Source: a virus. Taken from it: a stretch of DNA of 40,626 nucleotides. Under the pieces are notes generated by a model. It was not told the DNA's origin. It was given only the letters and a program-made list of their open reading frames with translations, and ran no database searches. Each line of letters opens with the position of its first letter. The stretch's first letter is position 1. A program made the position numbers and the translations under genes. The stretch spans positions 1 to 40,626 of the IMG/VR virus record IMGVR_UViG_3300021139_000041; one strand, given 5' to 3'. Shown here in pieces: positions 1-21,300 of the stretch.

Positions 1-612
1 CGCTTCCACATACGGATTAGTCTCACCGAATTTATAAAGTTGACTACTATTATGGGCATGGGTAAAATGATTCCTGCCGTCACTAACCAAGTTGGTGTAG
101 GCACCATGTTGCTTAATGTCTTTAACCCAAGTGCTACTAAAAGCAGGGTTACAATAACTGCAAGCAAACTGACAAGTTCTGTCGAAGGCGATTTCAAGCG
201 TTTGAAGATCGAAGTCTTCACTGGCTGGGGTTCTATGTGCATGTGCTAAATCCTCGTCTGAATAAATTACTGTTTTGTATACTCGGTCACTGATAGGTTC
301 GGCAACATCCCCAACTGCACCTTTGTGCATATCTTCAATCTTCCAGCAGTATTCACAACCCGCAGGACGTTCGCCCGCTTGCATTTGTGCACGTTGGTGT
401 TTCTTTTCTGGAGTATTGTGTAGGGCTTTGGGATTGGCTTCTACTGCCTCTACACTGACCTGATGTGGTAAGGGATGATGGCAACTTGTGGTTTGACCCG
501 AACCTAACCATATAGTGGCATTGTACCATTTTGCTCCGCAGAATGATTCTGATTTGATGTCAATTACTCTGCGTTTGTATTGTAAGTCTGTTTCGTTCTG
601 TTGTTTAGGCAT
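1..612 (-). CDS. Radical SAM protein, N-terminal part (runs off left edge)
   Basis: Reading the minus strand from an ATG at 612-610 gives an open frame of 204 codons to the window edge, so the gene is incomplete at its 3' end. The radical SAM iron-sulfur motif CxxxCxxC (C147, C151, C154; bases 151-174) is followed by AFSSTW, nearly identical to the SPQFSSTW after the same motif in the full radical SAM gene at 2909-4303. Both proteins also share an N-terminal segment with C-x-H-P (C44, H46), then NP-ALHNT, then a CEYCW-type pair (C86, C89), which may bind a second cluster. The gene overlaps the end of the SGNH gene by 49 nt, and its start has only a weak AAGAA ribosome site. The family cleaves S-adenosylmethionine to start radical chemistry; the substrate here is unknown. 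Confidence 0.85.
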   Translation of the reverse strand, partial: MPKQQNETDLQYKRRVIDIKSESFCGAKWYNATIWLGSGQTTSCHHPLPHQVSVEAVEANPKALHNTPEKKHQRAQMQAGERPAGCEYCWKIEDMHKGAVGDVAEPISDRVYKTVIYSDEDLAHAHRTPASEDFDLQTLEIAFDRTCQFACSYCNPAFSSTWVKDIKQHGAYTNLVSDGRNHFTHAHNSSQLYKFGETNPYVEA

Positions 613-1298
613 TTAATTAATTCTTCGGCAATTTTTTTATGTCCTGCTATATTAGGGTGGCAATAACAGGGTTTAATATATTTGTCCACGTATACCTTCT
701 GTTCGTTCCATTGCTCTGATGTTATTTCCGGGCAATCATCTACTATTAAACCTTGATTCTTAATATCTATAACTGGTAAAATATATTCTGCTATACATTT
801 ATTTTTTGGTATTAACCAATTTTCTAAAGGTATGTAATCAAATACACCCAAGTCGACAGTGGTAAAAATATTGTAAAAATAACATTGTATACCTAACTCT
901 TTGCATAGTAGGTACAATAAATTTGTATTACAGTCATAATTATACACTCTTTGCATTGAAGAGTCAAAGTATTTGTACCATTCTTTTGTGTGTGGGTGCA
1001 GGTTGTGTTTGTCATAACCAGACGGTAATATATTTTTTAAACCGATCTCATCAAAGATTGATATTCTGATATTTGATGTAAGCCCAAAAAATACAATATC
1101 TTTTTTAGGATCAATAGTGCTTGCTATCTTGATAAATTCATGTGTCAATGAATTAATACTACTCCCGCATATAGATAAATTGATGCATTCTGCTTGAAAA
1201 TGATCACTAATTATTTTAGCAAATACCTGTGTGTTGCGATCATTTATTGATAACTCGTCACCAAACACCCAACTGTCCCCAAACCAATAAAATTTCAT
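564..1298 (-). CDS. SGNH/GDSL-type hydrolase-like protein
   Basis: This 244-residue protein opens with FGDSWVFGDEL (S9 in the nucleophile block), has a glycine block at ICGSSINS, a third block at GLTSNIR (N76) and a C-terminal HPNIAGHKKIAEEL block (H214). These are the ordered blocks of SGNH hydrolases, which remove acyl groups from sugars, lipids or esters. The usual Asp three residues before the catalytic His is a Cys here (C211), so the triad may be altered or inactive. Its start overlaps the stop of the upstream gene as ATGA, implying translational coupling. The DNA is visibly more AT-rich than the GT genes at 5-8 kb. A role in deacylating a glycan fits the neighbours but is inferred. Confidence 0.75.
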   Translation of the reverse strand: MKFYWFGDSWVFGDELSINDRNTQVFAKIISDHFQAECINLSICGSSINSLTHEFIKIASTIDPKKDIVFFGLTSNIRISIFDEIGLKNILPSGYDKHNLHPHTKEWYKYFDSSMQRVYNYDCNTNLLYLLCKELGIQCYFYNIFTTVDLGVFDYIPLENWLIPKNKCIAEYILPVIDIKNQGLIVDDCPEITSEQWNEQKVYVDKYIKPCYCHPNIAGHKKIAEELIKCLNNRTKQTYNTNAE

Positions 1299-1945
1299 AT
1301 TTTATAAAACTCTTTATTAATTGTTTGATATTGTGATATAAATGTTTGAATTAGTGTATCGGGCGTTACACCTATTAGATGTGCGATGGCATCATTTAAA
1401 CTTTTATTATCTAATCCCAATATAGTTTTAAAAGGTATTGCGTAATCTACTAGATTATGATCAATTGCAGTAATCCAATTAGCAGTATCGTTAATTCTAA
1501 ACTTAATTAATTCCTTTTGAATAATATTCGAAGATAATATATTATCTTTACTATATAGCGGCCAATCTGCACCGGCAACTTTATTATATTCTTCTTGATT
1601 CCAAATCATATCTAATGCCTTTGTGGTTCGAAATTTTGATATAAGTTCTACGTCATCATTATCGTAATCTATTAGAACTATTTTAATATTTGGCATTAGC
1701 GATTTAACTTGAGAAAGATTTTGATAGTGGGAAAATAATATGGTTTTAGTGTACACTTTATCTTGCCAATAATCTCCTATTAATTCTATATAGTCTGTAT
1801 TCTTCCAGTTTCCGTTTCCTAAATTGTGGCAGTGCCCATTTGGTGATATAATGGTATCACAAGGAAATCCTAAATATTTTGCTATGACACCGGTTAAAAA
1901 CATTCCCGAAGAACCGGGTACATTTACAATATAGTATTGGTCCAT
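1295..1945 (-). CDS. Putative P-loop sulfotransferase-like protein
   Basis: The 216-residue protein begins with a beta strand followed by VPGSSGMFL (about residues 9-17), a glycine/serine-rich loop resembling the phosphosulfate-binding loop of sulfotransferase-like proteins. A second strand-like stretch NIKIVLIDYD (about residues 86-95) and downstream charged helices fit a P-loop alpha/beta fold. No complete second-half sulfotransferase signature could be confirmed by eye, so the assignment is tentative; another nucleotide-binding fold is possible. It overlaps the preceding glycosyltransferase-like gene by 22 nt and the following SGNH gene by 4 nt (ATGA), so it is part of the same operon. Sequence is strongly AT-rich (about 30 percent GC on one line I counted, 1321-1380). 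Confidence 0.5.
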   Translation of the reverse strand: MDQYYIVNVPGSSGMFLTGVIAKYLGFPCDTIISPNGHCHNLGNGNWKNTDYIELIGDYWQDKVYTKTILFSHYQNLSQVKSLMPNIKIVLIDYDNDDVELISKFRTTKALDMIWNQEEYNKVAGADWPLYSKDNILSSNIIQKELIKFRINDTANWITAIDHNLVDYAIPFKTILGLDNKSLNDAIAHLIGVTPDTLIQTFISQYQTINKEFYKI

Positions 1946-2922
1946 AAATTATCTATTTTTATTTTTTGCTCTTTGACGAACTCAAAGAAACGAGCTCGAT
2001 TGTGTCTTAGATCGGGCAACATATCTGAGTACATGCCAATTAAATTTTTATTGCTTAAAGACTTCAACGCATCTATTATTCTATCATGTACTTGAAATTC
2101 TTTGACATCCTCTAATTCAACATCAAAATAATGAGTAAACGTTTTGAAACCGTTGTCCCTAAGATATTTATAGATCTTTGTTTGGCCGTTAATTAGAAAT
2201 GGACGCAGTCCAATTATTGGCTTCCATGTTTTTTCTGTTATAAACATATTATCCCATGGATTAAATTCTGTTTCTCCGACGATAGTTAAGAAATGATGTT
2301 GCCATATATCCATTCTGCCCAAGCTGTGTATATCGTGTGGTATACCATAATCATTTGCCATACCCCAATTGCCTATAGCGTAATCTTTAATCTGCTCATC
2401 TAAAGTATACTGATTGCCTAATGTTATTACTCCGTTTTTGCCCAAACCAGTAGAAATCAATTTGTCTATAAATTCTATTCTATGACTTCGCGGCTTGCGA
2501 TTATATGTTATATAATTCCATTTAGGATCTTGTAGCAATAAATCATTTTCACTATAATTTTGAAAATATTTTGGTAGCAGTGTGGCAATGAACGTAAACT
2601 GTTGATCTGTATCAAAATTACCTATATAGTAAGTTTCGTCTACACCTAATTGTAATGAAATGGTATCAAGTTGTTCACGATTAAGCATAACAGGATCAAC
2701 GCTGGCTAGAAAAAATAACCTATCAACATTGCGGAATTTAGACAATTTGATATATTCACCATTGTCAAATTGTGGGCCAAACCAAGTGGTGTTGATTAGT
2801 AAATTGTTGCCTGTTGGAAACATTCTATTGATTTGCGATTCGATATTGGCAACTAGATTTATTTCATCTTGGTGCCATTGACTGTTTCTAGCAAAAGTTG
2901 TACCTATTTTAAATGTCGCCAT
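1924..2922 (-). CDS. TEKT-motif glycosyltransferase-like protein
   Basis: The ATG at 2922 gives 332 residues. An in-frame GTG at 2940 with GGAAAG just upstream would add six residues and cannot be excluded. The middle has YNRKPRSHRIEFIDKL, and the C-terminal half has TEKTWKPII followed by PFLING and GFKTF. This NR-R-HR plus TEKT-x-x-PII plus GF-TF pattern is typical of fucosyltransferase/GT10-like proteins of phages and bacteria. The C-terminal part is paralogous to the protein at 4290-5258 (TEKTLRPII, GFRTF). It overlaps the end of the radical SAM gene by 14 nt. Acceptor and sugar donor cannot be read from sequence. Confidence 0.65.
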   Translation of the reverse strand: MATFKIGTTFARNSQWHQDEINLVANIESQINRMFPTGNNLLINTTWFGPQFDNGEYIKLSKFRNVDRLFFLASVDPVMLNREQLDTISLQLGVDETYYIGNFDTDQQFTFIATLLPKYFQNYSENDLLLQDPKWNYITYNRKPRSHRIEFIDKLISTGLGKNGVITLGNQYTLDEQIKDYAIGNWGMANDYGIPHDIHSLGRMDIWQHHFLTIVGETEFNPWDNMFITEKTWKPIIGLRPFLINGQTKIYKYLRDNGFKTFTHYFDVELEDVKEFQVHDRIIDALKSLSNKNLIGMYSDMLPDLRHNRARFFEFVKEQKIKIDNLWTNTIL

Positions 2923-4303
2923 TTTGTGCTCGGTATTCACATTCTTTCCAAAACTCTCGCATTTGTGGAAATGTTTTTAAAAAGTTTGTTTGGCGTCTTT
3001 TATCGTGTTCGTTAAAAAATCTATAAAAGTTGGCACGTTGTAGTTTGACGTAGTCAGGATCTAGTTTAGCGCCTTCTTGCATCCATGCTATATCTCTACG
3101 CATACGTTGTACTTCGTAGTCTTTGAATCCTTGGAACGGAGCTTCTGCGGTTTCTAAATTTGTTTCCATCCAGTCTGCCACACGTTCCAACATTGCAACA
3201 TACACAGGAGGTAGTATTTGCAAACTTTGCCATTCGGGCTTGCGTAATAGTGGAGTATCAAACCAAACACGTTGGTATGTGGTACTGTAAGACTTGCGTA
3301 GTGCCAGTATCCATTCCAGTTGTTGTTGTAGTCCCAACACACTGAGATTGTTCATTGTGATAATAAACGTAAGACTGTTACGGTATGGGATTTCATGTAA
3401 GAATGAATTAACATTCCATTCCATTCTTCGAAAATTTAAACCATGTCTAATATATTCAGCATGTTCGGGATTTCCCGAATCTAAACTTACAAACTGCATG
3501 AAATGTTCTATTTGTGTGTTGCATAACTGCTTGACATATCCCAAATACTTGTCAAATAATGCAGGTTCTACACTAAAGTTGCTAGTGACATTTAAATGTA
3601 AATCGGGTTTGGGCATGACCAACACATAGTCAAATACTTTATAAGTATTCTTGTCCATGAGTGGTTCGCCACCAGTCATTCTAAAATGTTTTAGTTTGGG
3701 ATACAGTGTGGGCCACCATTCCCAAAATGCCTCTACATATGGGTTGTCATGGCTGGCAGGTATAGGGCGGTTTCTACCAACAAAGTGACTAGGGTCGTTA
3801 TGAATAGTGCTAGTAGGATATCCTCCCCATCGATCAACTTCTGCTTGCCAGGTACTACTGAATTGAGGACTGCAATAGCTACAAGCAAGATTGCAGGCAT
3901 GATTAAAATTAACTTCAACATAACTTGGTACGACATCGTCTTCCTCTCCAGTACTATTTACTATCGCATCGTAATCTTCTGCAGCCCAAGGCTCTCCTGA
4001 GCGATAATGACGATCGCTTAACTGCCCGTGCTTTTCAATATTCCAACAGTAACTACACTCTGAGGGTTTTTCCTGTCGCAACATCATGACACGTTGTTGC
4101 TTTTTGTAAGCAGTATTGTGTAATGCTCCGGGATTTGTTTTTAGAACCTCGGCCTCAATCTCATGTAATGGCGGATGATAACAACTGTTGTTGAGTCCTG
4201 TGGGCAAGTGTAAGCTCACCTGTTTCCATTTGGCCAAACACAATGCCTCGCCAAGATTGTCTCGCATCCATTCGGCATTGGCCATAAAATTACTTTTGTT
4301 CAT
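2909..4303 (-). CDS. Radical SAM protein with extra N-terminal cysteines
   Basis: This 464-residue protein has the CxxxCxxC motif that binds the SAM-cleaving 4Fe-4S cluster (C137, C141, C144) and the SAM-binding GGEP motif (residues 211-214). Upstream, C41-x-H43 and C83-x-x-C86-W are conserved with the partial paralog at 1-612, suggesting a second metal or cluster site. The layout resembles phage and bacterial radical SAM proteins annotated with a twitch domain. The ATG at 4303 has AGGT upstream and overlaps the preceding gene by 14 nt. The substrate is unknown; neighbours suggest a sugar or a phage surface protein. The enzyme class is confident, the reaction is not. Confidence 0.88.
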   Translation of the reverse strand: MNKSNFMANAEWMRDNLGEALCLAKWKQVSLHLPTGLNNSCYHPPLHEIEAEVLKTNPGALHNTAYKKQQRVMMLRQEKPSECSYCWNIEKHGQLSDRHYRSGEPWAAEDYDAIVNSTGEEDDVVPSYVEVNFNHACNLACSYCSPQFSSTWQAEVDRWGGYPTSTIHNDPSHFVGRNRPIPASHDNPYVEAFWEWWPTLYPKLKHFRMTGGEPLMDKNTYKVFDYVLVMPKPDLHLNVTSNFSVEPALFDKYLGYVKQLCNTQIEHFMQFVSLDSGNPEHAEYIRHGLNFRRMEWNVNSFLHEIPYRNSLTFIITMNNLSVLGLQQQLEWILALRKSYSTTYQRVWFDTPLLRKPEWQSLQILPPVYVAMLERVADWMETNLETAEAPFQGFKDYEVQRMRRDIAWMQEGAKLDPDYVKLQRANFYRFFNEHDKRRQTNFLKTFPQMREFWKECEYRAQNGDI

Positions 4304-5258
4304 TTAATTTTACCTGTGACGCATCTATTTTTTGTAGGTGCTTTCTATTGTATTCTAAAGTTTCTTGCATATCAATTAGCAATTGTTGTAAACTGGAGTT
4401 GTCTAGTTTAAATATATCTTCAAGTACTTGTTTAATTTGACACAATCTCTCATAGTTACTGTAATTGTCGTAATCCTCGTTCCACCAACGATTGAATGTT
4501 CGAAATCCCATGCGTTGTAAATTTCCCAAATATCCAGCTGGGCCCATTACAATGAATGGTGTTTGAGCTATAATAGGTCTTAGTGTTTTTTCTGTGGGGA
4601 AGAACGACATTCCAGAAACATAGGTTTCAGAAACAATATCAACAAATATTTTGTGATATTGATGTATAATATTATAGTGCGTGGGTGGACCAATTGTGTA
4701 ATTGATAAAACCTTCTTCTAGTACGATTGGGCAATGCTTTAAGAATGGTGCCACCAATTCTAACTCTTCTGGTGCCAATACATTAATGTCACTTATATTA
4801 CAATCTAATCTATGTCGTTCTGAACTGGGATCATAATGAATTGTTAGCAGTGTTTTGTCTACATAATTGGTGTGCAACCAGGCGCTTAATAGTAGTCTAT
4901 GCCAATTGGCTTTGCCTAAAAAACATCCTGCATGCGTTAATTGTGATAATTTTGCTTCTAATTTATAATTAAATATAGGTTTGCAATTGGCAATCCAATG
5001 ATTGTTATGCACTACTATTTTATAATCAGGATGAGTTTCTTCTACGTTGTGTGTTACTATTGTTACACAAGATTTATCAATATCAAACTTATTACAAATA
5101 TAGTCCAATGCCGAATAAAATTTGGCTGCGGTCAAACAAAGCCCTTCAGCGTTGGTTTGTATTACAACTCTTTTTGTGGTTTGATATTCTTTGATGATAT
5201 CTGCCACCCGCATTGGCAGTTCAAATATTTCGCGATCTTTATTGGTTAAATTAATCAC
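4290..5258 (-). CDS. TEKT-motif glycosyltransferase-like protein
   Basis: The longest open frame starts at 5363 but would overlap the oxygenase gene by 109 nt. I prefer the in-frame GTG at 5258, which overlaps the oxygenase stop as GTGA and gives 322 residues starting MINLTNKDRE. Its C-terminal half carries TEKTLRPII (about residues 222-230), PFIVMGPAGYLG, GFRTF and WWNEDYD, a block shared with the protein at 1924-2922 and seen in phage glycosyltransferase-like proteins. The N-terminal half is different from that paralog. The likely role is sugar transfer in the modification operon. The ribosome site before the GTG is weak, so translation may depend on coupling with the upstream gene. Confidence 0.62.
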   Translation of the reverse strand: MINLTNKDREIFELPMRVADIIKEYQTTKRVVIQTNAEGLCLTAAKFYSALDYICNKFDIDKSCVTIVTHNVEETHPDYKIVVHNNHWIANCKPIFNYKLEAKLSQLTHAGCFLGKANWHRLLLSAWLHTNYVDKTLLTIHYDPSSERHRLDCNISDINVLAPEELELVAPFLKHCPIVLEEGFINYTIGPPTHYNIIHQYHKIFVDIVSETYVSGMSFFPTEKTLRPIIAQTPFIVMGPAGYLGNLQRMGFRTFNRWWNEDYDNYSNYERLCQIKQVLEDIFKLDNSSLQQLLIDMQETLEYNRKHLQKIDASQVKLNEQK

Positions 5259-5776
5259 ATCATGAACCCAGATACTTGTAAAGTATATTTGTCTTCCATG
5301 CCTGCATTGGCACCTATGTGTAGAACATTGTTGTCCCACATAAATCCTGTGCCGGCTTGCCAATTTGATATTACAACATCGTCATACTGCAAAAAATGAC
5401 CCATCTTCCAATCTTCGAGATAAATGTTTGCACGTACTTTTAATTCTTTGCGATCAGGATAACGCTTATTGATTTGGAAAAATGTGTCTCGATGTATGGG
5501 TATCACGCATCCTGGAGGTTGTAATATACTACTCACAGTAATCACTTCCATGCCCAATTGTTTACCAATATCATTAAAATCACATTGTGTATTGTTCCAC
5601 CACAATTGATGTATAACCGTGTTGGCATAGGTATAAGTTTTTGGAAAGCCACCAAACTTTTCATGTATATCTGTCAACTCATGAACTTGATGTTGGATGC
5701 AACTGCCCTCATGTTGTGTATAGTCTGCATTTAAAAATACAGAAAAATCATAGTTTAATTTTATTTCTTTTATCAT
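5255..5776 (-). CDS. 2-oxoglutarate/Fe(II) oxygenase
   Basis: The 173-residue protein has a facial-triad pattern: IPIHRDTF gives H95-x-D97, and VLHIGAN gives distal H153. K163 lies ten residues after H153, where prolyl-4-hydroxylase-type enzymes place the residue that holds 2-oxoglutarate. The stretch MGHFLQYDD and WQAGTGFMWDNNVLH fit the double-stranded beta-helix core. Such enzymes hydroxylate protein side chains or small molecules. It overlaps the upstream glycosyltransferase-like gene as ATGA and the downstream one as GTGA, so it is embedded in a translationally coupled set. Whether it acts on a phage protein or on a sugar is unknown. Confidence 0.8.
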   Translation of the reverse strand: MIKEIKLNYDFSVFLNADYTQHEGSCIQHQVHELTDIHEKFGGFPKTYTYANTVIHQLWWNNTQCDFNDIGKQLGMEVITVSSILQPPGCVIPIHRDTFFQINKRYPDRKELKVRANIYLEDWKMGHFLQYDDVVISNWQAGTGFMWDNNVLHIGANAGMEDKYTLQVSGFMM

Positions 5777-6672
5777 TCTCGCACCATGGGTCCTGTATTC
5801 TTAAAATTGCTCTTGTAGTGATGCTTGAAGAATCGACTTTGCACGGGATCTAACGTCACCATGGGCAGGCCTAACCGTTGAGCCAATTCTTCTTCGTAAT
5901 TGTGAACAAAGTTCACAGGATTGAAATGTTGTACAGTCTCTTCCCAATAACTAGCCAACATCGCAAAGTCCTGTACTTCTCGATAATCCCAATCCGTCAG
6001 CATTGTGTTGTATGTGCCTTGTCTAGCACCAGCCATGGCCCAAATGCCCATCTCATTGTCAGCACCCACATTGTGCCATATGCTGAGATTGTCCATGTTG
6101 CGAGCAACTACACGAGTTTTAAACTCGGCAATTGTGGGTTTCGCTCCTCTATCCAAACACATCTTGACACCTTCACGAAACCCTGCTCTCCATGCTTGAA
6201 ACGGAGTGGCATCAGGGTATGTGGTGCTATAGCAATCATGCATAGCCCAATAGTCAGGGTGGAAACAAAACTCCACAGAAGTTGCATCTGAGCCATCCGA
6301 ATTCTCATGTGTTTTCATTGCATATACAAAGTCCCGGTGCCAAATGCTTAAGCCACCGTTGCCATACATCAAGCCATTGATGTTATTCCTAGCACGATAA
6401 CGAAATACCCCGCGAGCATTGATTCGTGAATCCAACTGTAAGTTGAAAAAGGCAGCGTCGGGAATGTTGTCGCCATCAATCAGCACAAAGCGATCAGTGG
6501 TGCTGGCATCAGCTGCGGCTTTGTGTGCTGCATCTGAACCTTTTACACCATCTACACGTTGTGCCCAAGGCACCATGTTTTGGATCTGTATCCAAAATTC
6601 TTCTCGCTTGGGTTCATCATAAGTCAAGTAAATTACATCTAAATCGGCTATGTCAATTAGTTCTGAGGTCAT
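5773..6672 (-). CDS. GT-A-like glycosyltransferase with DGD motif
   Basis: The open frame begins at 6726, but I place the start at the ATG at 6672 (GAGAATATT upstream, 20-nt overlap with the previous gene), giving 299 residues starting MTSELIDIADLDVIYLTYDEP. The opening beta strand, the conserved WAQRVDGVKG stretch and FVLIDGDNIPD (DGD at about residues 66-68) match a nucleotide-sugar-binding GT-A fold in which the acidic triad holds a metal. Then come GLMYGNGGLSIW and a C-terminal part rich in aromatic residues. The stop overlaps the oxygenase start as ATGA. Two upstream in-frame ATGs (6726 and 6699) are possible but lack good ribosome sites. Confidence 0.65.
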   Translation of the reverse strand: MTSELIDIADLDVIYLTYDEPKREEFWIQIQNMVPWAQRVDGVKGSDAAHKAAADASTTDRFVLIDGDNIPDAAFFNLQLDSRINARGVFRYRARNNINGLMYGNGGLSIWHRDFVYAMKTHENSDGSDATSVEFCFHPDYWAMHDCYSTTYPDATPFQAWRAGFREGVKMCLDRGAKPTIAEFKTRVVARNMDNLSIWHNVGADNEMGIWAMAGARQGTYNTMLTDWDYREVQDFAMLASYWEETVQHFNPVNFVHNYEEELAQRLGLPMVTLDPVQSRFFKHHYKSNFKNTGPMVRE

Positions 6673-6997
6673 AATATTCTCGTTCTGGGTATTCTTCATC
6701 TTCAATAATGAGACCTGCGTGTCCACGTACTACCAGAAATCCTTTTGTACTTTTTTTCAATTGCACGTAGTATTTTGTGCTTGTATCAATTTCTTTCAGG
6801 GTGCCGTTTACAACACGGTAATTGAAGTACTTAGCGTATTGTTCTTGGGTAACAACAATATAGTTGCCATCGGCGTGCTGTGCCATACTGCCGCTGATGA
6901 TATCGCCCTCTTCATTGTAATAAAGTCTGTACTCTAATACAATTGGTTCTACCGGCTGAATTAAACTTTCAACTTCCTGCCAAAACTCGTTGCTCAT
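6653..6997 (-). CDS. Conserved phage protein of unknown function
   Basis: This 114-residue protein contains EYRLYYNEEGDIISGS, then YIVVTQEQYAKY and a VVNGTLKEID stretch. This arrangement looks like small beta-rich proteins that recur in marine T4-like phages, but no function is known to me. No membrane segment or signal peptide is visible. It overlaps the previous glycosyltransferase gene by 29 nt and the next by 20 nt with the start I chose, so it is co-translated with sugar-modification genes and may act with them. Confidence 0.65.
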   Translation of the reverse strand: MSNEFWQEVESLIQPVEPIVLEYRLYYNEEGDIISGSMAQHADGNYIVVTQEQYAKYFNYRVVNGTLKEIDTSTKYYVQLKKSTKGFLVVRGHAGLIIEDEEYPEREYYDLRTN

Positions 6998-7820
6998 AAT
7001 ATTCTATTAGTTCCTGTGTGGCGTATGTCTTGTCATGATAGTGAACGGAATCGTATTGATTTAGATTGTTGATGCGTATGACGTCACCCTCACGCTCGTG
7101 CATTACAGTGTCTAACCAGCTCTGTGCATCACTCCACCCATTAAAGCCCGACTTCATGTGTACAAAGTTTATAAAGTCCATGCTAGGCATTGTGACTGTT
7201 TCCTCGTCCAACATTAATGCAGTCAGTGCATAAACAACATCGGTTGTGGGCACTAGGTCTAAGTCTATGTCTTTTAAATATATTTTTACCCCATCCCAAT
7301 CACGAAATATACTGCCAGCAAGATCAAAAAAATGTTTGGCAGTTTTGGTATATCTAAAATACATCAAACCAGTGTAAACGTCGGGCAAATGATTTGCATC
7401 AAACAGTTGTCTATATTTTCTAACTGCGCTTGGTAACCCTAAATAAGTTTTAGCACCAGTACTCAAACAAACATCACGAAGTCTAAATGCAGTCCACCAG
7501 TGATCAATACTGCGTGTAAACAACAAATCACTTTCTAGTTTGATGGTTTCTTTAAACGGAGTAAGAGAAAACGCATAAGGTTCTGCTGTAAAAGGTGCTT
7601 GTTCAAATCCCTCAGGTAGTCGAATAATGTAATCAAATGCGTCGAGTTGTCGGTTGTTGAATGAATTATAAGTTGCTTCATCCGCAATGACTGCGTATCG
7701 GTTTTCTCGTTGTGTGGCTTTGACATTCAAACATTGTAGATATGCCAGTCTGCCGTAGTCAACTTCGGGCGTGTTAATCGCAAAGGTCAAAAAACCCTGT
7801 TGTTCTTGATGTTGACTCAT
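6969..7820 (-). CDS. GT-A-like glycosyltransferase paralog with ESD motif
   Basis: The 283-residue protein parallels the neighbour at 7817-8635: an opening strand FLTFAINTPEVDYGRLAY, a middle YAFSLTPFKETI, and an acidic triad at the end of a strand. Here the triad is KLESDLLF (E96-S97-D98), where the neighbour has LLDTDYVV. Glycosyltransferases with a GT-A fold use this triad to bind metal and nucleotide sugar, so the change may alter donor use or signal a divergent role. The start overlaps the neighbour's stop as ATGA. A tandem duplication followed by divergence is the simplest reading. Confidence 0.62.
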   Translation of the reverse strand: MSQHQEQQGFLTFAINTPEVDYGRLAYLQCLNVKATQRENRYAVIADEATYNSFNNRQLDAFDYIIRLPEGFEQAPFTAEPYAFSLTPFKETIKLESDLLFTRSIDHWWTAFRLRDVCLSTGAKTYLGLPSAVRKYRQLFDANHLPDVYTGLMYFRYTKTAKHFFDLAGSIFRDWDGVKIYLKDIDLDLVPTTDVVYALTALMLDEETVTMPSMDFINFVHMKSGFNGWSDAQSWLDTVMHEREGDVIRINNLNQYDSVHYHDKTYATQELIEYYEQRVLAGS

Positions 7821-8635
7821 GCTAGTAGTCCGTTTATCAATTGTTCAAAGTCTGCACTTTGTAAGTATTGTTTATCCATGATGTGTGTGTTTTGTCGGGG
7901 CACTATTCGACCTTTGCCGTCGTTGTACACATATAAAAAATTATCATCATATAACACTTGATCAACCTGTCCTTCTATTGTGAACATGCGCCATGGTATT
8001 CCTTGATCTTCATTTAGATTATAACCACTTAGTATATTATTAGCAATAGCAAACGCATAGTCATTTCTGTAGTTGCCTTCACGAATATTGTATAACTTAC
8101 GATAGTATCCGTAATTGCGTTGTATCTTGGCCACTAAATCAAATAACAATTCTGCACGTTTACTCTTGCGAAATAGCACTATTGTGGCCCACACAAAAGG
8201 CAGACTGGTATTGCCCATTAGCTCATAAACTGCTCCTTCACAATTGCGATTATGATGCATCAATTTGTAATCAAAATCAGTTTCAAATAAGCGATTAAGG
8301 CTATTGTCCAATACAACATAATCTGTATCAAGCAAAATAGTATCTTGGTATGGCGTGAGAGCGTAGGCCCAGTGTCTTCCACGGTTTCTCCATTGTATGT
8401 TTCCATCTCTAAAATTATTTCCTTGTGGATCTATTGTGATTATGTTGTCGTATCTAAACTTGGGGTCTGCGTCATGATCAGTTATCAGTGTAACAGGCAA
8501 CCCCATGTAGTGACTTGCAAGTTGACTTGTGCGATCTGCAATCCGTACATAGTCAACAGTCTCAGTATTGAACGCAAATACAACTATACCCCTAGCGGTT
8601 AAAGTGGATTTTTCTAAGTTTTCGGAGTTCGTCAT
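7817..8635 (-). CDS. GT-A-like glycosyltransferase with DTD motif
   Basis: The 272-residue protein has a strand GIVVFAFNTETVDYVRIA, LPVTLITDHD, and YALTPYQDTILLDTDYVV with the DxD motif at residues 103-105, in the order expected for a GT8-like GT-A enzyme. A later stretch, SLPFVWATIVLFRKS, is consistent with the acceptor-side half. The ATG at 8635 lies inside the previous gene (44-nt overlap) and lacks a clear ribosome site; no better in-frame start is visible. It is the second gene after the promoter at 8928-8956. The transferred sugar is unknown. Confidence 0.7.
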   Translation of the reverse strand: MTNSENLEKSTLTARGIVVFAFNTETVDYVRIADRTSQLASHYMGLPVTLITDHDADPKFRYDNIITIDPQGNNFRDGNIQWRNRGRHWAYALTPYQDTILLDTDYVVLDNSLNRLFETDFDYKLMHHNRNCEGAVYELMGNTSLPFVWATIVLFRKSKRAELLFDLVAKIQRNYGYYRKLYNIREGNYRNDYAFAIANNILSGYNLNEDQGIPWRMFTIEGQVDQVLYDDNFLYVYNDGKGRIVPRQNTHIMDKQYLQSADFEQLINGLLA

Positions 8636-8921
8636 GTTGTTGGTGCCAGCGGTTCATTGCTTTAGAATAACATTCTTTGCATTGTTCGGCAAAGAATTCG
8701 GGATCGGGAATGTGTATGGGATTTTGATATGTGTCCTCCAAATACATAGATTCGGTTCTGGGCCAAGTTGAAGCAAACACGATCAATTCTGGTGTGGCCT
8801 TGAACAATCCGCCATTGTAGGCAAAATGCAAATCGGTTTGGATTTTCTCGCGAAGAATACGCTTGTTAACTTGGTAGTCTGTGGCCACTGTAATGTATGA
8901 TTTGAATGTGTCTAAGTCCAT
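8592..8921 (-). CDS. Small conserved phage protein, first gene of modification operon
   Basis: This 109-residue protein has YNGGLFKATPELIVFA, then YLEDTYQNPIHIPDPEFFAEQCKE in pieces, then a basic, aromatic C-terminus with NRWHQQHDELRKLRK. I recognise the style as a conserved hypothetical protein of T4-like marine phages but know no function. It is the first gene behind a strong sigma70-like promoter, whose expected transcription start is at or within a base or two of the ATG. Either the message is nearly leaderless or the true start is a later codon; V12 is GTG, but no ribosome site clearly supports it. Confidence 0.7.
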   Translation of the reverse strand: MDLDTFKSYITVATDYQVNKRILREKIQTDLHFAYNGGLFKATPELIVFASTWPRTESMYLEDTYQNPIHIPDPEFFAEQCKECYSKAMNRWHQQHDELRKLRKIHFNR

Positions 8922-8927
8922 CTACAC

Positions 8928-8956
8928 AGTATAACATACCGCTGAGTAGATGTCAA
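8928..8956 (-). promoter_or_regulatory. Strong sigma70-like promoter for the modification operon
   Basis: On the minus strand a perfect -35 hexamer TTGACA (8956-8951) is followed by 17 bases and the -10 hexamer TATACT (8933-8928). It sits in the 45-nt gap between the last tail gene and the first gene of the modification operon, and faces that operon. The predicted start point is around 8921, at the ATG itself. It is unlike the T4-type late boxes elsewhere in the window, so this operon is probably read by the unmodified host polymerase, earlier than the tail genes. Confidence 0.78.
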
Positions 8957-8966
8957 TTAATTTTGG

Positions 8967-9896
8967 TTAGGTTATTGTAACCGTGCCCCAGGTACTGGTT
9001 AGGCCGCTTGTGGTTTCGGGGTAAACTGTATCAATCCTGTGATTCCAAGTAACATTGATATCTTCATTGAACGATGAACTCACTGCACCCGAGTACACAG
9101 TAAAGTCCAAATACAACACAGATCCTGCATCATTGTAGATGCCTTGTGTGCCGTTTGAACGTATGGCCACTTGCACATAGTCACCCGAATATGTGGAGCT
9201 TGCTGAGAGTATTTTGCTGATTGGCAAGGTTGTAGTGGTAGAGTCCCAATAGCCCAAGTTAGTGCTATTAGTGACCACAGTTCCGCCAATTCCGGTTCTA
9301 CCACCATTGCTGTGTCCGGCAATGCCTGATAAATTTTGTAAATTGGTGCCAATCAATGTGGTCCATCCCGAACTGCGAATTGATCCACTGGTGCTACCGT
9401 TTACTACTGATGTAGTAACAAAATTAAAGTATCCGCCAGCATTGAAAAAGTAACGTGCTGCATCGCCACTGGCAAAAGTCATTGTTCTTGTGAATGTCCA
9501 AGTTTGTGCCAGCATTGTGTTGGCCACTGTGAAATTTGGAGAAAATGTGCTACCAGTAGTGGTAGTACCAGCCGAGTAGGCATTTTTTCTATTGGTGTAT
9601 AGCGTGTTGATGGCACTTGACATTAGGCTGATCCAGAATATTGTGCTGCCCGATGTCACAGGCGATATTCCAGTGCCAGTGTTTGACTGGTGCATTGACA
9701 TTATGTTCATGGTGTTAATCAAAGTGCTCCACTGGGCTGCACTCACTGTACCGCCCGAAGATACCGTGGGTAACACAGTCTGTCCGTAACCAGCATCGCC
9801 GCTACCTGTACTCCAGATTTTGTTAACTTGATTTGCACCGTTTAAAAATCCGTTATAGTCAGATGCTTGAATTAATCCACCTTGTGAATAAGCCAT
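8967..9896 (-). CDS. Phage structural protein, tandem paralog 1
   Basis: The 309-residue protein starts MAYSQGGLIQASDYNGF, continues with GYGQTVLPTVSSGGTVSAA, and ends with NHRIDTVYPETTSGL and WGTVTIT. The same framework occurs in the adjacent gene at 9907-10899, so the two are tandem duplicates. Proteins of this type occur near the tail genes of marine T4-like phages and are presumed virion components; the exact position is unknown. Low charge and high Ser, Thr, Gly and Asn content suggest an extracellular beta-rich structure. AAGAGA upstream of the ATG serves as a ribosome site. It is the last gene of the tail operon before the promoter at 8928-8956; no hairpin terminator is visible. Confidence 0.65.
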   Translation of the reverse strand: MAYSQGGLIQASDYNGFLNGANQVNKIWSTGSGDAGYGQTVLPTVSSGGTVSAAQWSTLINTMNIMSMHQSNTGTGISPVTSGSTIFWISLMSSAINTLYTNRKNAYSAGTTTTGSTFSPNFTVANTMLAQTWTFTRTMTFASGDAARYFFNAGGYFNFVTTSVVNGSTSGSIRSSGWTTLIGTNLQNLSGIAGHSNGGRTGIGGTVVTNSTNLGYWDSTTTTLPISKILSASSTYSGDYVQVAIRSNGTQGIYNDAGSVLYLDFTVYSGAVSSSFNEDINVTWNHRIDTVYPETTSGLTSTWGTVTIT

Positions 9897-9906
9897 ATTA
9901 TGTCTC

Positions 9907-10899
9907 TTATGCTATTGTTATTGTGCCCCAACTGTTGCTCAAATTGGTGGTTTCGGGATATACTATATCAATTCTGTGATTCACAGTTACGTTGATAGTG
10001 TCGTTTACCACTGTGTTGGTTGTGGTAGTACCAGTACCAGGCGGGTTAGCCGGGGGAGCCGGCAACGTTGGACGTGCTGCTGATGTCAAAGTAAGTGCAA
10101 ATGTAACAACTGAACCTACATCTGCATTTGATCCTTGTACTCCATTTGACTTTACTGTGAGTACTGCGGTATCACCGGTATAGCCCGATGTAGTGCTGGT
10201 AATTGATACCAGTGTCTGTGTGCTAGTAGTAAGGTTGTAATAACCAATATTGGTGGCATTGGTATTCAATGTGCCGCCCGAACCGGTTCTACCGCCACCA
10301 CTGGCAGCCCTAAATGCTGAAAATCCGCCAAAGTTGGTTGCTGCCAGTGTGACCATGTCGCCCGAGCGGCTGGTACCATCATTGTTGGTTGCGCTTGACA
10401 CCACAAAATTCAATTGTCCACCAGCATTGAAAAAATATCGAGCTTGATCGGCACTGGCAAATGTGGCAGTACGTGTAAAAGTTGTTGGGAAAGCGGCCTG
10501 TAGGTTTGAGTCCGCCATGGACCCAGCAAAATTACCGCCGGTTGTGGTTGAACCTTGTGTGGCAAAAGTCAATGCACTGCTGTATGCAGTGGCAATACTG
10601 GAACTGAATGTGCTTAGATATGCTGCCAAGCTACCGCTGGTAGGAGCACTGATACCAGTGCCAGATCCCGATTGATGTGTTCTAATACTGTTGAGAGTGT
10701 TAATGGCGCTGGCCCATTGCGTGGCTGTTACTACTGATGCGCCACTGGACACTTGGCTTAATGCTGTTTGTCCATATCCATATTGGCCATTTCCAATGGC
10801 CCATACTGTGTTTAGCGTATTTGCTGTACTGCTTGGGCTAGAGCCCACAAAACCATTATAATCTGTTGCTGCTATTAGTCCGCCTGAACTGTATGCCAT
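9907..10899 (-). CDS. Phage structural protein, tandem paralog 2
   Basis: This 330-residue protein shares its whole framework with the next gene: MAYSSGGLIAATDYNGF start, GYGQTALSQVSSGASV, ARYFFNAGGQLNFV, SNGVQGSNADVGSV and the ending NHRIDIVYPETTNL with WGTITIA. It differs by a proline- and threonine-rich insert near the C-terminus (APPANPPGTGTTTTN, around residues 282-296) that may be a flexible linker. It lies 13 nt after the third fibre gene, with AAGGA as ribosome site. It is probably a tail or fibre-associated virion protein; no enzymatic motif is visible. Confidence 0.65.
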   Translation of the reverse strand: MAYSSGGLIAATDYNGFVGSSPSSTANTLNTVWAIGNGQYGYGQTALSQVSSGASVVTATQWASAINTLNSIRTHQSGSGTGISAPTSGSLAAYLSTFSSSIATAYSSALTFATQGSTTTGGNFAGSMADSNLQAAFPTTFTRTATFASADQARYFFNAGGQLNFVVSSATNNDGTSRSGDMVTLAATNFGGFSAFRAASGGGRTGSGGTLNTNATNIGYYNLTTSTQTLVSITSTTSGYTGDTAVLTVKSNGVQGSNADVGSVVTFALTLTSAARPTLPAPPANPPGTGTTTTNTVVNDTINVTVNHRIDIVYPETTNLSNSWGTITIA

Positions 10900-12118: not shown

Positions 12119-12126
12119 TATTTATA
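12119..12126 (-). promoter_or_regulatory. T4-type late promoter box TATAAATA
   Basis: The minus strand reads TATAAATA, identical to the core of T4 late promoters recognised by gp55. It lies 27 nt before the ATG of fibre C, leaving room for a short leader with AAAGGAA. It could raise expression of fibre C and the paralog pair relative to the genes upstream. Confidence 0.65.
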
Positions 12127-17598: not shown

Positions 17599-18303
17599 TT
17601 ATCCTAGAGTGCTTAGATTGGTTAAAGTTTGAATACGCACTGTATAGTCAATTTGAATAAGTCGGTTCAAGGCTTTTTGCACCGGATGAAACACAACATG
17701 AGTCAATAACAATCCAGTTGATAACAATCCCACAGTGCCGTCAGTGCTGGCGCCTCGTAATCCTAGCTCATCAAACACATATTCTCCATTGAGATCGGTG
17801 CTGTTATCAAATGCCTGTTGTCCACTGGGCTCGCCGTAGTCAAGCAAACAACTTACCAATATATCAGTATACACTGTGCCTGGAATGTGTGTTGCACTCA
17901 TGTAATTGTTTACTGGATCAGGGTTGGCAATTGAGGTGTTGTCCACAATCTTGCTGTAAGTGGGATTATACAAATTTGCGTTTTGCCCTGTAGTATTGGT
18001 GGGCAAATATGTAATGATGCCTGTTGGATCAACGCTGGTGCCGCCGTTACCAAAATTCATTTCATATATGAAATTTTGACTTTTGTTTGCGATACTGTTT
18101 GCTAGAGCCACGCTCATGTTCTCGTAGTGAATTGCATTGAACTTGTCACGTAACACAATTGGATTTGCGCGATCTGTTACATCACTGATCTTGATGTGCC
18201 CTCTAACATAAATTCCTGTTGATTCATTGGGGCTTTTTTGGTTATTTTCCACTGGTTTTTCCTCTATTTTTTGCGGGGTTGGGTCATTATTGTTATTTAT
18301 CAT
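17599..18303 (-). CDS. Baseplate or tail-associated structural protein
   Basis: The 234-residue protein has a charged, disordered N-terminus (about 28 residues), then GIYVRGHIKISDVTDRANPIV, LRDKFNAIHYENMSVALAN and NFIYEMNFGNGG. A conserved GHI-I-D plus NAIHYENMS pattern is familiar from phage virion proteins but has no assigned activity that I know. Its position between the giant baseplate protein (ATGA overlap) and the first fibre suggests a connector between baseplate and fibres, in the slot where T4 has gp8 to gp11. Assignment to one of those is not supported by visible similarity. Confidence 0.6.
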   Translation of the reverse strand: MINNNNDPTPQKIEEKPVENNQKSPNESTGIYVRGHIKISDVTDRANPIVLRDKFNAIHYENMSVALANSIANKSQNFIYEMNFGNGGTSVDPTGIITYLPTNTTGQNANLYNPTYSKIVDNTSIANPDPVNNYMSATHIPGTVYTDILVSCLLDYGEPSGQQAFDNSTDLNGEYVFDELGLRGASTDGTVGLLSTGLLLTHVVFHPVQKALNRLIQIDYTVRIQTLTNLSTLG

Positions 18304-21300
18304 GGGGCGAATCCTCCTCTAGATGCTTTCAGGAATGTGGCCTGTACGCCTGTTTGGCTGTCTAGTGTATGTCCGTTTGACGGAGTTCCGTTTCCTCTAG
18401 AGTACCAAATATTGCCTTGTACCAGACTGGTACCTGCTGCAACTGTGGTTTGTCCGTCTATGTTTACTTTTCCAAGTATGTAAGCGGTGTTGACATAGGC
18501 CGATGTCACGTTGTTGTTGATGTATATTGGACTTGTGGTATTGTCAAATCCCACTCCGGTAGTGGTTAGATTTGCAGTCCATGAGCTACCGGTCCAGTAA
18601 TACAATTGATTGGTAGTGGTGTTATACCATTGATCATACGGTTGCAACACATTGGCCGTTGTGGTGTAATTGCTCAAATTACCGTTAAAATACACAGTTG
18701 AATTTGCTGATGTTGTGATATTTGATGAAATATTTGATTGGCTAGATATATTGGCAAAATATGCTGAATATACATTGCCCAACACAGTGTAAACATTACC
18801 ATTGTATTGCAACACACTGCCCACAGTGAACACAGTGTTTGAACTCCAACTTGGAATGGTCACGTTTGGACGTGTGGTAGGCGCCGAGCTGGCAGTGATG
18901 ACAAAGGGCTCGTCTCCGCCATCGGCATCAAATCCCAGATTGCTATCAAACACCTCAGGCAAGCCCTGCAGAGTGCCCGCAGTTATGATAACTGGTACTA
19001 CATTGGAATTGGTAACAGTTTGTAAAGCTCGCATCGTAACTGTGTTGGCTGTGTTTCCAGCGAACAAGTAGATCACATTGGCCGTCACATTGGCAAAATT
19101 TGCACCGTACACATTGCCAGTGGCTTGATAGCTGGCACCATTGTAGTAGAAGGTGCTGCCCGACATTATTGTGGTGTTGTTGGGAGTCCACACATTGGAT
19201 ATTGTTCTAATCTGTGTCAATACATCACCAATGTTGGCACTGATTGTTCCGTTGATGCGCAGGCCATATGACACATAGTCAGTCATGGTGTAGGTGTTTG
19301 CATAAGTCAGTTGCAGATTCTTGGTAGCAGTACCAGGAATTGATTGTAGTATACTGGAGTCAACCACATAAGAATTGGCCACGTGTCGTGTTGCTACATT
19401 GCCCACGAATGCAAATTGAATATTTGCGCTGATGCTGGCAAATCCCGAATCAGTTCCACTAGTGACATAAGTGAGATTGGAGCTGATGTTGGCAAACGTG
19501 CTACTATAAACATTTCCTGTAACCACGTAGGTGTTGTTATTGAAGTACACATACTCGCCCACAGAAATAGTGGCGTTTAACGGAGTCCATGGTATGTTGT
19601 AAGCCCAAGTATTACCGGTTGTAACATAAGTGTTTCCTTGGTAATAAATGTAAGCACCAACCGGATAGTTGGCAAACGTGTGCCAATTGTTTATGGTCAA
19701 TGTGGTTGGGGCAGTGCCGTCCACCGCACGTCTTATTTGTCCAAGACTGTTAATACTGATTTGAGTGGTATTTGCTGCTATTGATGCAAATGTGCTGGCA
19801 TAAACATTACCAGTGGTCAAATAAGTATTGCCACCATAACTGATGACACGATCTGTTGCCACCACTAGATTTGGTGTCCAAGCAGTACCTGGTTCAGTTA
19901 TGTAATTTCTATAATAAGTGATTTTTTCACCATTAATAAACACCACCCCAGGAATTCCCAGAGCCGGATTTGGCGTTGGCAACACTTCGGCATTGACCAC
20001 GTTGATAAATTTATCAGTGATCAATAAATCTTTGGCCAATTGTGTTTTTGCAGTACCAATTCGATAGTAACTTGAATTGCCGTTCATGTCATCAAATATT
20101 CTAAAGGCCAAGTTACTGCCGTCATTTGTAAACACTTCGAGATTGAGTGCGTCGTATACACGTCCAGGAACCAGCTCTTCAGGTGCATGACTGTTGTAGG
20201 TGTCGTAGTAGGCGCCCCCGTCAATCTGTATATCTCCAGGATTGACTCCAAATACATTGCTGTAAAAACTCTTGATGTTGGTGTCGTACTGTGTGCCTAT
20301 GTAGGTGTTGCCGTCAACTATCACGCCAGGATAATCAATACCAGACTGATACAGTGCCAAGTTAACGTTGCCGTTAAATGCAGTGATTCTATCATTGGCT
20401 GTATTAAAATTGCTTGCAGAGATTGAGGTAATATTTGCAGTCGGGAACACAATATTGCTGCCTACATTGTAGGTATTGCTCAATTGATACAACAAACCGT
20501 TATTGACTATAATGGAGTTGGCATTGATTGTGGTGTTTGCAGTAACATTGTCCCAGAATACAAAAGTATTGGAATTTGTGTAGTCCAAGCGATCAAATCG
20601 CATTGTGGTAGAGATACTACGTACCAAGTTGTGACCCATGTTGTTTCCAACAAATACATTTCGCAATACTGCATAGGCCACTGCGCCAGTTCCAACGCCG
20701 TTTATGATGACTTCGGGTTCTGAAGTAAATCCCGCTCCCGGAGTCAACACTGTGATACTAGCAATGCCGCCAGCAGCGTTCACTGTGGCTACTGCGGTTA
20801 CACCTTGGCCTCCGCCACCTTTGACCACAATTTGTGGTGCAAACAAATATCCAGTACCAGGAGATTTAACAACTATATCGGCCACTTGATATTTGTAATT
20901 GTTCAGCCATTGACGGTACACTCCGGTTTGATATATTGTAGAGTCATAGGATTGTGTGCCTGTTGGACTACGATAAATGCCTAGAGTGGCGTCCCAATAT
21001 GGTGGTAAATCAAAATCTGTAATATCTCCGTTGTAGTAGTCATTGCCAATGTAGTCAACAACAAACTCTCGAACCAAAGTTCTATAGGGCTTGACTTCGT
21101 TGATATAATCCAAATAGAAGGTTTGGTTGTCAGGGATATAACTTGGGAATTCTTGCAGTTTACGAATGCGTTGTGTTGCACTTATAAAACTGGTTTTGAA
21201 TACCCAATCCAAATTCTTTTGCTCAGTGAGAATGTAATTGATCATGGCAAAGAAGATGTTGTTGTATTCATTTACCAAGTCATCAATGAATATGTTATCT

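Follow-up and report, generated by a model that had tools for sequence, protein, structure and literature searches.

The closest described counterparts of the locus reported here are the host-recognition clusters (HRCs) of pelagimyophages and cyanomyophages, hypervariable islands beside the tail-fibre genes of T4-like genomes that carry several glycosyltransferases; radical S-adenosylmethionine (SAM) cassettes are gained and lost there between close relatives, modification of the host O-chain has been proposed, and the freshwater Fonsibacter myophages were reported to have no radical SAM genes (PMC7029224). A second precedent is the T4-like marine phage TARA_ERS488813_N000010, whose 12 radical SAM genes were read as iron–sulfur (Fe-S) metabolism, with no gene order, transferases or operon described in the available part of that paper (PMC5332604). 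Here we analyze the operon at positions 8921 to 1 of a 40,626-base viral contig (IMG/VR record IMGVR_UViG_3300021139_000041; the whole contig is called the window below) in a survey of about 200 related loci. It differs from the HRCs in its ordered, fixed core with five paralogous radical SAM genes, in its conserved sigma70-type promoter with a terminator and in lying on contigs of up to 354 kb. The pelagimyophage-type HRC is bounded by VrlC and gp14; the window ends inside the operon. Together with its exchangeable genes, the fixed gene set probably serves to make or alter a sugar at a surface in the course of infection.

As the initial annotation had it, twelve minus-strand open reading frames (ORFs) fill this stretch with no gaps between them. 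Neighbouring genes overlap at all 11 junctions, and the claimed ATGA or GTGA linkage applies to four of these (GT1/GT2, 7817-7820; GT3/2OG, 5773-5776; 2OG/TEKT2, 5255-5258, where TEKT2 starts with GTG; and SULT/SGNH, 1295-1298), the other seven overlapping otherwise. The proposed nine-kilobase size holds as a minimum: because the contig end interrupts the second radical SAM gene, rSAM2, about 9 kb is a lower bound, and the window holds the head of an operon that extends at least 10 kb further in relatives. The T4-like assignment is borne out by gp6-type (4e-288), gp25-type (2e-16) and gp55-like late sigma factor (8e-80) proteins, and baseplate hub proteins are also encoded on the contig. The carriers are uncultured T4-like jumbo phages, with contigs reaching 354 kb.

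Fixed core and exchangeable cargo

A scan of IMG/VR with rSAM1 returned 142 relatives, of which 80 were kept; the window proteins were mapped onto them by tblastn and the relatives' ORFs were clustered. Gene order in these relatives runs from the tail-fibre genes through U109, GT1, GT2, (U114), GT3, rSAM1, rSAM2, rSAM3, rSAM4 and rSAM5 to f12, and the strict core order is kept in 70 of 79 loci. U109, GT1, GT2 and GT3 are each present in 68 of the 68 loci with enough sequence. Where there was room, rSAM2 was found in 55 of 55 loci and rSAM5 in 54 of 55, with five to eight rSAM genes per locus in 53 of 55 and three in the other two. As these loci were preselected for rSAM1, the scan was repeated with GT1 as the anchor: each of the 51 loci that had 9 kb downstream held GT2, GT3 and one or more rSAM genes, several contigs being common to both sets. 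When the scan was anchored independently on g234, a gene of the tail–baseplate region, U109, GT1 and GT2 came after TF330 in 23/23 loci, and the rSAM genes were reached in five of the six loci in which GT3 had room, the 10 kb flanks often being too short. Directly after rSAM5, 47 of 55 loci encode f12, a conserved 360-residue protein (for example L006, 17231-18313) that matched nothing in Pfam or NCBIfam.

Between GT3 and rSAM1, and likewise between rSAM1 and rSAM2, sit zero to five cargo genes. Those of the window have tblastn counterparts in 8 (2-oxoglutarate (2OG) oxygenase), 24 (TEKT1-type), 32 (TEKT2-type), 3 (SGNH) and 1 (sulfotransferase-like) of the 80 rSAM1 loci. Elsewhere the cargo encodes epimerase/RmlD proteins, UDP-glucose/GDP-mannose dehydrogenase, DegT aminotransferase, hexapeptide transferase, carbamoyltransferase, 2OG oxygenase, halogenase and methyltransferase. 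The co-occurrence of the 2OG oxygenase, radical SAM and both TEKT proteins on which the initial annotation had staked a single pathway does not hold across relatives; the 2OG, TEKT, SGNH and sulfotransferase-like genes are cargo, not obligate partners. The co-occurrence that a pathway would require is confined to U109-GT1-GT2-GT3 and the N_Twi rSAM paralogues.

We also compared pairwise distances on 41 loci by partial correlation controlling for the backbone gene g234; such distances are not independent, and no p-value is claimed. Values among U109, GT2, GT3, rSAM1 and rSAM2 range from 0.39 to 0.62, compared with −0.27 to 0.13 between the same genes and the tail-fibre genes. GT1 is intermediate, and among the values involving fibres only GT1-TF330 (0.25) and rSAM1-TF330 (0.13) are clearly positive. 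TF330 is the direct neighbour of U109, yet the two are uncorrelated; linkage alone predicts the opposite, which supports one functional unit beginning at the promoter. The highly variable cargo, like the hypervariable host-recognition clusters already published (PMC7029224), would also fit a loose island of auxiliary metabolic genes (AMGs) or morons, unrelated genes in a hypervariable region that share no pathway. We consider such an island unlikely, given that the core order is fixed, co-occurrence is strict and the core genes co-evolve. Synteny, overlaps, the conserved promoter, the near-absence of T4-late motifs at the operon genes and core-gene co-evolution support the earlier claim of one co-transcribed modification operon behind a promoter of its own, in which the 2OG, TEKT and SGNH genes are exchangeable members.

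Enzymes encoded by the operon

The NCBIfam family N_Twi_rSAM (NF033640) has a curated cut-off of 170 bits. The window's rSAM1 scores 301 bits and its truncated rSAM2 122 bits, in agreement with the two radical SAM enzymes first annotated, and full-length paralogues of all core groups score 232-409 bits. The CX3CX2C motif is intact in every full-length copy across the six paralogue groups. By these profile scores, the core rSAMs are paralogues of this one family, and here they form a tandem phage array. Related contigs of 180-354 kb carry 1-12 members above the cut-off, mostly at least seven, with a single member on one contig; the 14 well-known genomes taken as controls have none above it.

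Downstream of the radical SAM array, three loci encode a SAM synthetase (L056, L057 and L046) and six a 5'-methylthioadenosine/S-adenosylhomocysteine (MTA/SAH) nucleosidase (L045, L046, L052, L054, L056 and L057). MTA/SAH nucleosidases can cleave 5'-deoxyadenosine too, and the two enzymes may serve the rSAMs through SAM supply and by-product clearance. Peptides are the substrates of many SPASM/twitch radical SAM enzymes, and in profile comparisons the rSAMs weakly resemble sactipeptide and WgkB maturases. These likenesses, with the small conserved proteins U109 and U114 as possible partners, would suit a pathway akin to that of ribosomally synthesized and post-translationally modified peptides, in which the twitch rSAMs crosslink or epimerize a phage polypeptide and the transferases then add sugars. 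However, we recognized no short ORF of the precursor type carrying a repeated core peptide, and the cargo chemistry is that of sugars; we regard this route as quite improbable.

The DxD and His residues of GT1 are invariant among relatives, while profile searches gave no match and comparison with solved structures only chance matches. GT3 has an invariant DGDN, and its model, with a predicted local distance difference test (pLDDT) score of 75, finds its best structural matches mostly among GT-A enzymes and nucleotidyltransferases (E 0.01-0.05). For TEKT1, the only TEKT protein modelled (pLDDT 82), the top matches are mostly GT-B enzymes (E 0.003-0.05, template modelling (TM) score ~0.3). The models weakly support a GT-A-like fold for GT3 and a GT-B-like fold for TEKT1, none of these matches being significant. 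The initial GT-A-like calls keep their motifs without profile matches, and the TEKT-type calls keep a GT-B resemblance at these E values.

The 2OG oxygenase call is upheld by H95-x-D97...H153, invariant in six sequences, though Pfam returned no match; profiles of TEKT, 2OG and rSAM1 matched nothing among solved structures, and U109 had only chance matches in Pfam. The SGNH hydrolase first proposed stays putative, with motifs for the GDS block and C-terminal catalytic His and a Pfam E of 0.03 that falls below the cut-off. The sulfotransferase-like call is unsupported: beyond the motif, profile searches found no 3'-phosphoadenosine-5'-phosphosulfate (PAPS)-binding or other supporting family.

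Transcription at the operon boundary

The −10 element of the promoter that heads the operon (Table 1) ends 6 nt ahead of the ATG at 8921, and the transcript would therefore be leaderless. An 11/12 promoter match is weak by itself, with three such sites in 20 kb. At the U109 boundary, a score of at least 11 was found in 48 of 148 unique sequences versus 5 of 1480 shuffles, and a perfect 12/12 promoter in 18 of 148 versus none of the shuffles. Conservation of the promoter at this boundary is not chance, which bears out the operon's own promoter as initially annotated.

A strong stem also lies at the boundary in 101 of 148 sequences (31 of 740 shuffles). In one layout, the hairpin arms flank the −10, usually with T's after; read-through RNA would form a terminator, and promoter-started RNA would carry the 3' arm only. 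In another, the hairpin occupies the 17-bp spacer, and in a third the TTTACT tail of the terminator doubles as the −35. Examples of fused terminator–promoters lie by the U109 start in L009 (6136), L018 (6897), L007 (5504) and L080 (4691). The 5-bp inverted repeat of the window is possibly a weak remnant of the relatives' hairpin. Such fusion is not a genome-wide habit: among 40 promoter-like sites in 280 kb of three relatives, three had strong stems and none of these flanked the −10.

The motif ATAAATA is found near tail-region genes (TF392, 210/393; g234, 85/184) and is nearly absent near operon genes (U109, 8/190; GT1, 0/188; rSAM1, 1/177); taken by itself, the window has no more TATAAATA than chance would give. 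Because T4-late motifs accompany the tail genes and all but miss the operon genes, the operon is a separate unit. It is probably transcribed separately by the host polymerase, and its expression may be early. A second promoter-like sequence, TTGACT-17-TATAAT (11/12; 939-967, minus strand), lies inside the SGNH gene and could be an internal promoter for rSAM genes.

Table 1. Features of the operon and of the adjoining tail-fibre region in the window
Feature	Position	Strand	Remarks
U109, 109 aa	8592..8921	-	First gene; core
GT1, 272 aa	7817..8635	-	Core; putative GT-A transferase; invariant DxD (D103, D105) and H251
GT2, 283 aa	6969..7820	-	Core; putative transferase
U114, 114 aa	6653..6997	-	Common, not universal (53/68 loci)
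GT3, 317 aa	5773..6726	-	Core; putative GT-A transferase; invariant D-G-D-N
2OG-Fe(II) oxygenase	5255..5776	-	Cargo (8/80 loci); HxD...H invariant
TEKT2 transferase	4290..5258	-	Cargo; GTG start at 5258 overlaps 2OG stop; aligned with modelled TEKT1
rSAM1	2909..4303	-	Core; N_Twi_rSAM (NF033640); CNLACSYC cluster motif
TEKT1 transferase	1924..2940	-	Cargo; weak GT-B-like model
Protein initially annotated as sulfotransferase-like	1295..1945	-	Unsupported by profiles; one relative (33% identical) in L080
SGNH/GDSL-hydrolase-like protein	564..1298	-	Cargo
rSAM2	1..612	-	Core; N_Twi_rSAM; truncated by contig end
Two paralogous Ser/Thr-rich (30-31%) tail-fibre-region proteins	8967..10899	-	Directly upstream; fixed U109 neighbour, separate evolutionary unit
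Sigma70-type promoter TTGACA-17-TATACT	8928..8956	-	Heads operon; conserved at boundary in relatives
5-bp inverted repeat, TCTAC (8950-8946) / GTAGA (8925-8921)	8921..8950	-	Surrounds −10
T4-late promoter motif TATAAATA	12119..12126	-	28 nt upstream of tail-fibre gene (12091)

Further upstream, the baseplate/tail region of the window encodes a 4163-residue protein (18300-30791, minus strand).

Predicted product and acceptor

Our preferred reading, which we hold with reasonable though incomplete confidence, is that these T4-like jumbo phages carry an operon for assembling and tailoring a glycan, the likely product, in the cytosol, with the enzymes acting in one pathway. The core of U109, three transferases and five N-terminal-twitch rSAMs would make a constant unit, a modified sugar or oligosaccharide, and the exchangeable cargo (2OG, TEKT, SGNH, epimerases, carbamoyl- and other transferases) would vary its decoration, much as serotype-conversion genes do. 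The host sigma70 RNA polymerase would transcribe the operon from its own promoter, apart from the late tail genes, and in some copies the SAM synthetase and nucleosidase would provide SAM and clear the by-products derived from it. A Gtr-like O-antigen system comprises a membrane flippase, an undecaprenyl-phosphate glycosyltransferase and a specific glycosyltransferase, a pattern that the phage operon does not show; a simple hydropathy scan predicts no membrane segment in 1063 of 1086 operon ORFs.

Bacterial relatives of the rSAMs bear on the nature of the product. N_Twi rSAMs above the cut-off occur in 30 of 114 sampled genomes from the phylum of a Bacteriovoracales metagenome-assembled genome (MAG), three of which have GT3 homologues near them (G049, G095 and G109). 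These bacterial regions also share a carbamoyltransferase homologue and 2OG oxygenases with the phage operon, and differ in holding classical GT2/GT4-family enzymes, membrane proteins and ABC2 exporters; the phage U109, GT1 and GT2 found no match there. Pooled Pfam neighbours from 13 bacterial stretches comprise GT2/GT4, DegT, a polysaccharide-biosynthesis protein, the ABC2 exporter, 2OG and further radical SAM proteins. On a 2.66 Mb bacterial contig (L278-L279), radical SAMs closely resemble the phage subfamilies (L278, rSAM2-like, 655 bits, and rSAM5-like, 562 bits), and bacterial loci L271, L273 and L282 hold radical SAMs close to these subfamilies with GT3 homologues nearby. The one close GT3 match among genome contigs, L244 (PBPT01000016.1), measures 335 kb and was assigned to a Marinimicrobia MAG; it shows the phage order of tail-fibre and operon genes and is most likely phage sequence, probably a jumbo-phage contig binned with the bacterium.

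Phage glycosyltransferases frequently modify DNA, and DNA was among the substrates first proposed, together with virion proteins and host surface glycans. Hypermodification of genomic DNA is highly improbable here: core and cargo contain no nucleotide-hypermodification enzyme, the operon is placed by tail genes and the bacterial N_Twi family sits among surface-polysaccharide genes. The part of that proposal naming a sugar or glycan is the better supported. As to the acceptor, we lean slightly toward the host surface because of the sugar-tailoring cargo, the separate promoter and the bacterial relatives, and for either acceptor we favour a glycan; a host surface polysaccharide has somewhat less than an even chance of being the target, a phage virion protein is less probable, and something else less probable again.

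In particular, the operon could glycosylate or otherwise modify virion tail fibres such as TF309/TF330, diversifying receptor binding or shielding the virion. Its invariant position next to TF330, the composition of TF309/TF330 (30-31% Ser+Thr, 3% Lys+Arg), the soluble, exporter-free enzymes and the universal core across the sampled lineage are all consistent with this. Once the backbone is accounted for, the core nevertheless shows no co-evolution with TF330 or TF392, apart from the two TF330 values given above; a separate, non-late promoter and a terminator stand between fibre and operon genes, and the bacterial relatives are located among polysaccharide genes. Fibre modification is a tentative alternative to the glycan-tailoring operon that we prefer. 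Several points weigh against the latter as well. Neither an exporter nor a polymerase or flippase, all of them required for a complete surface polysaccharide, is encoded in the operon; its core transferases match no Pfam family; the enzyme activities are all predicted, with GT folds drawn from weak structural matches; core-gene co-evolution may partly reflect linkage; and the bacterial neighbours are pooled over the 13 stretches, which does not place all families in one island. A bolder version, which we regard as rather doubtful, is a phage-specific multi-step radical SAM pathway of five twitch rSAMs and three transferases, some copies with their own SAM supply and clearance, that puts a new glycan on host or virion under a fused terminator–promoter switch.

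Cultured phages offer few relatives. A tblastn search with rSAM1, rSAM3, 2OG, TEKT1, GT1, GT3, U109 and divergent relatives as queries found nothing beyond partial matches of 22-36% identity: those of rSAM were to Vibrio phages K566 and K567 and one single-cell marine virus, and that of 2OG to one Synechococcus phage; no homologue of U109 was found. Vibrio phage K566 (OZ196521; L083, 161548-172010), a cultured jumbo phage, has adjoining N_Twi rSAM genes, lacks U109, GT1, GT2 and GT3, and carries a PagP lipid A gene a few kb beyond the rSAMs. The Moraphages were considered as the same lineage and set aside; their predicted hosts are Bacteroidota and radical SAM is unmentioned (PMC12619734). As far as the papers cited here show, the invariant core, the tandem array of paralogues and the promoter–terminator boundary are new relative to PMC7029224 and the available part of PMC5332604, as are the SAM synthetase and nucleosidase genes associated with the array and the tie to bacterial neighbourhoods of polysaccharide type.

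Earlier reports described the radical SAM genes of phages as scattered AMGs or as Fe-S genes; in the present operon, they and the transferases make up a fixed array that co-evolves. The boundary element, a promoter in or beside a terminator hairpin, makes a clear prediction about transcription, and the compact operon offers a route to the function of the large N_Twi_rSAM enzyme family in a broad lineage of uncultivated jumbo phages. Should the operon edit host surface glycans, it would be a candidate for superinfection exclusion; should it act on fibres, it would change the understanding of phage host range.

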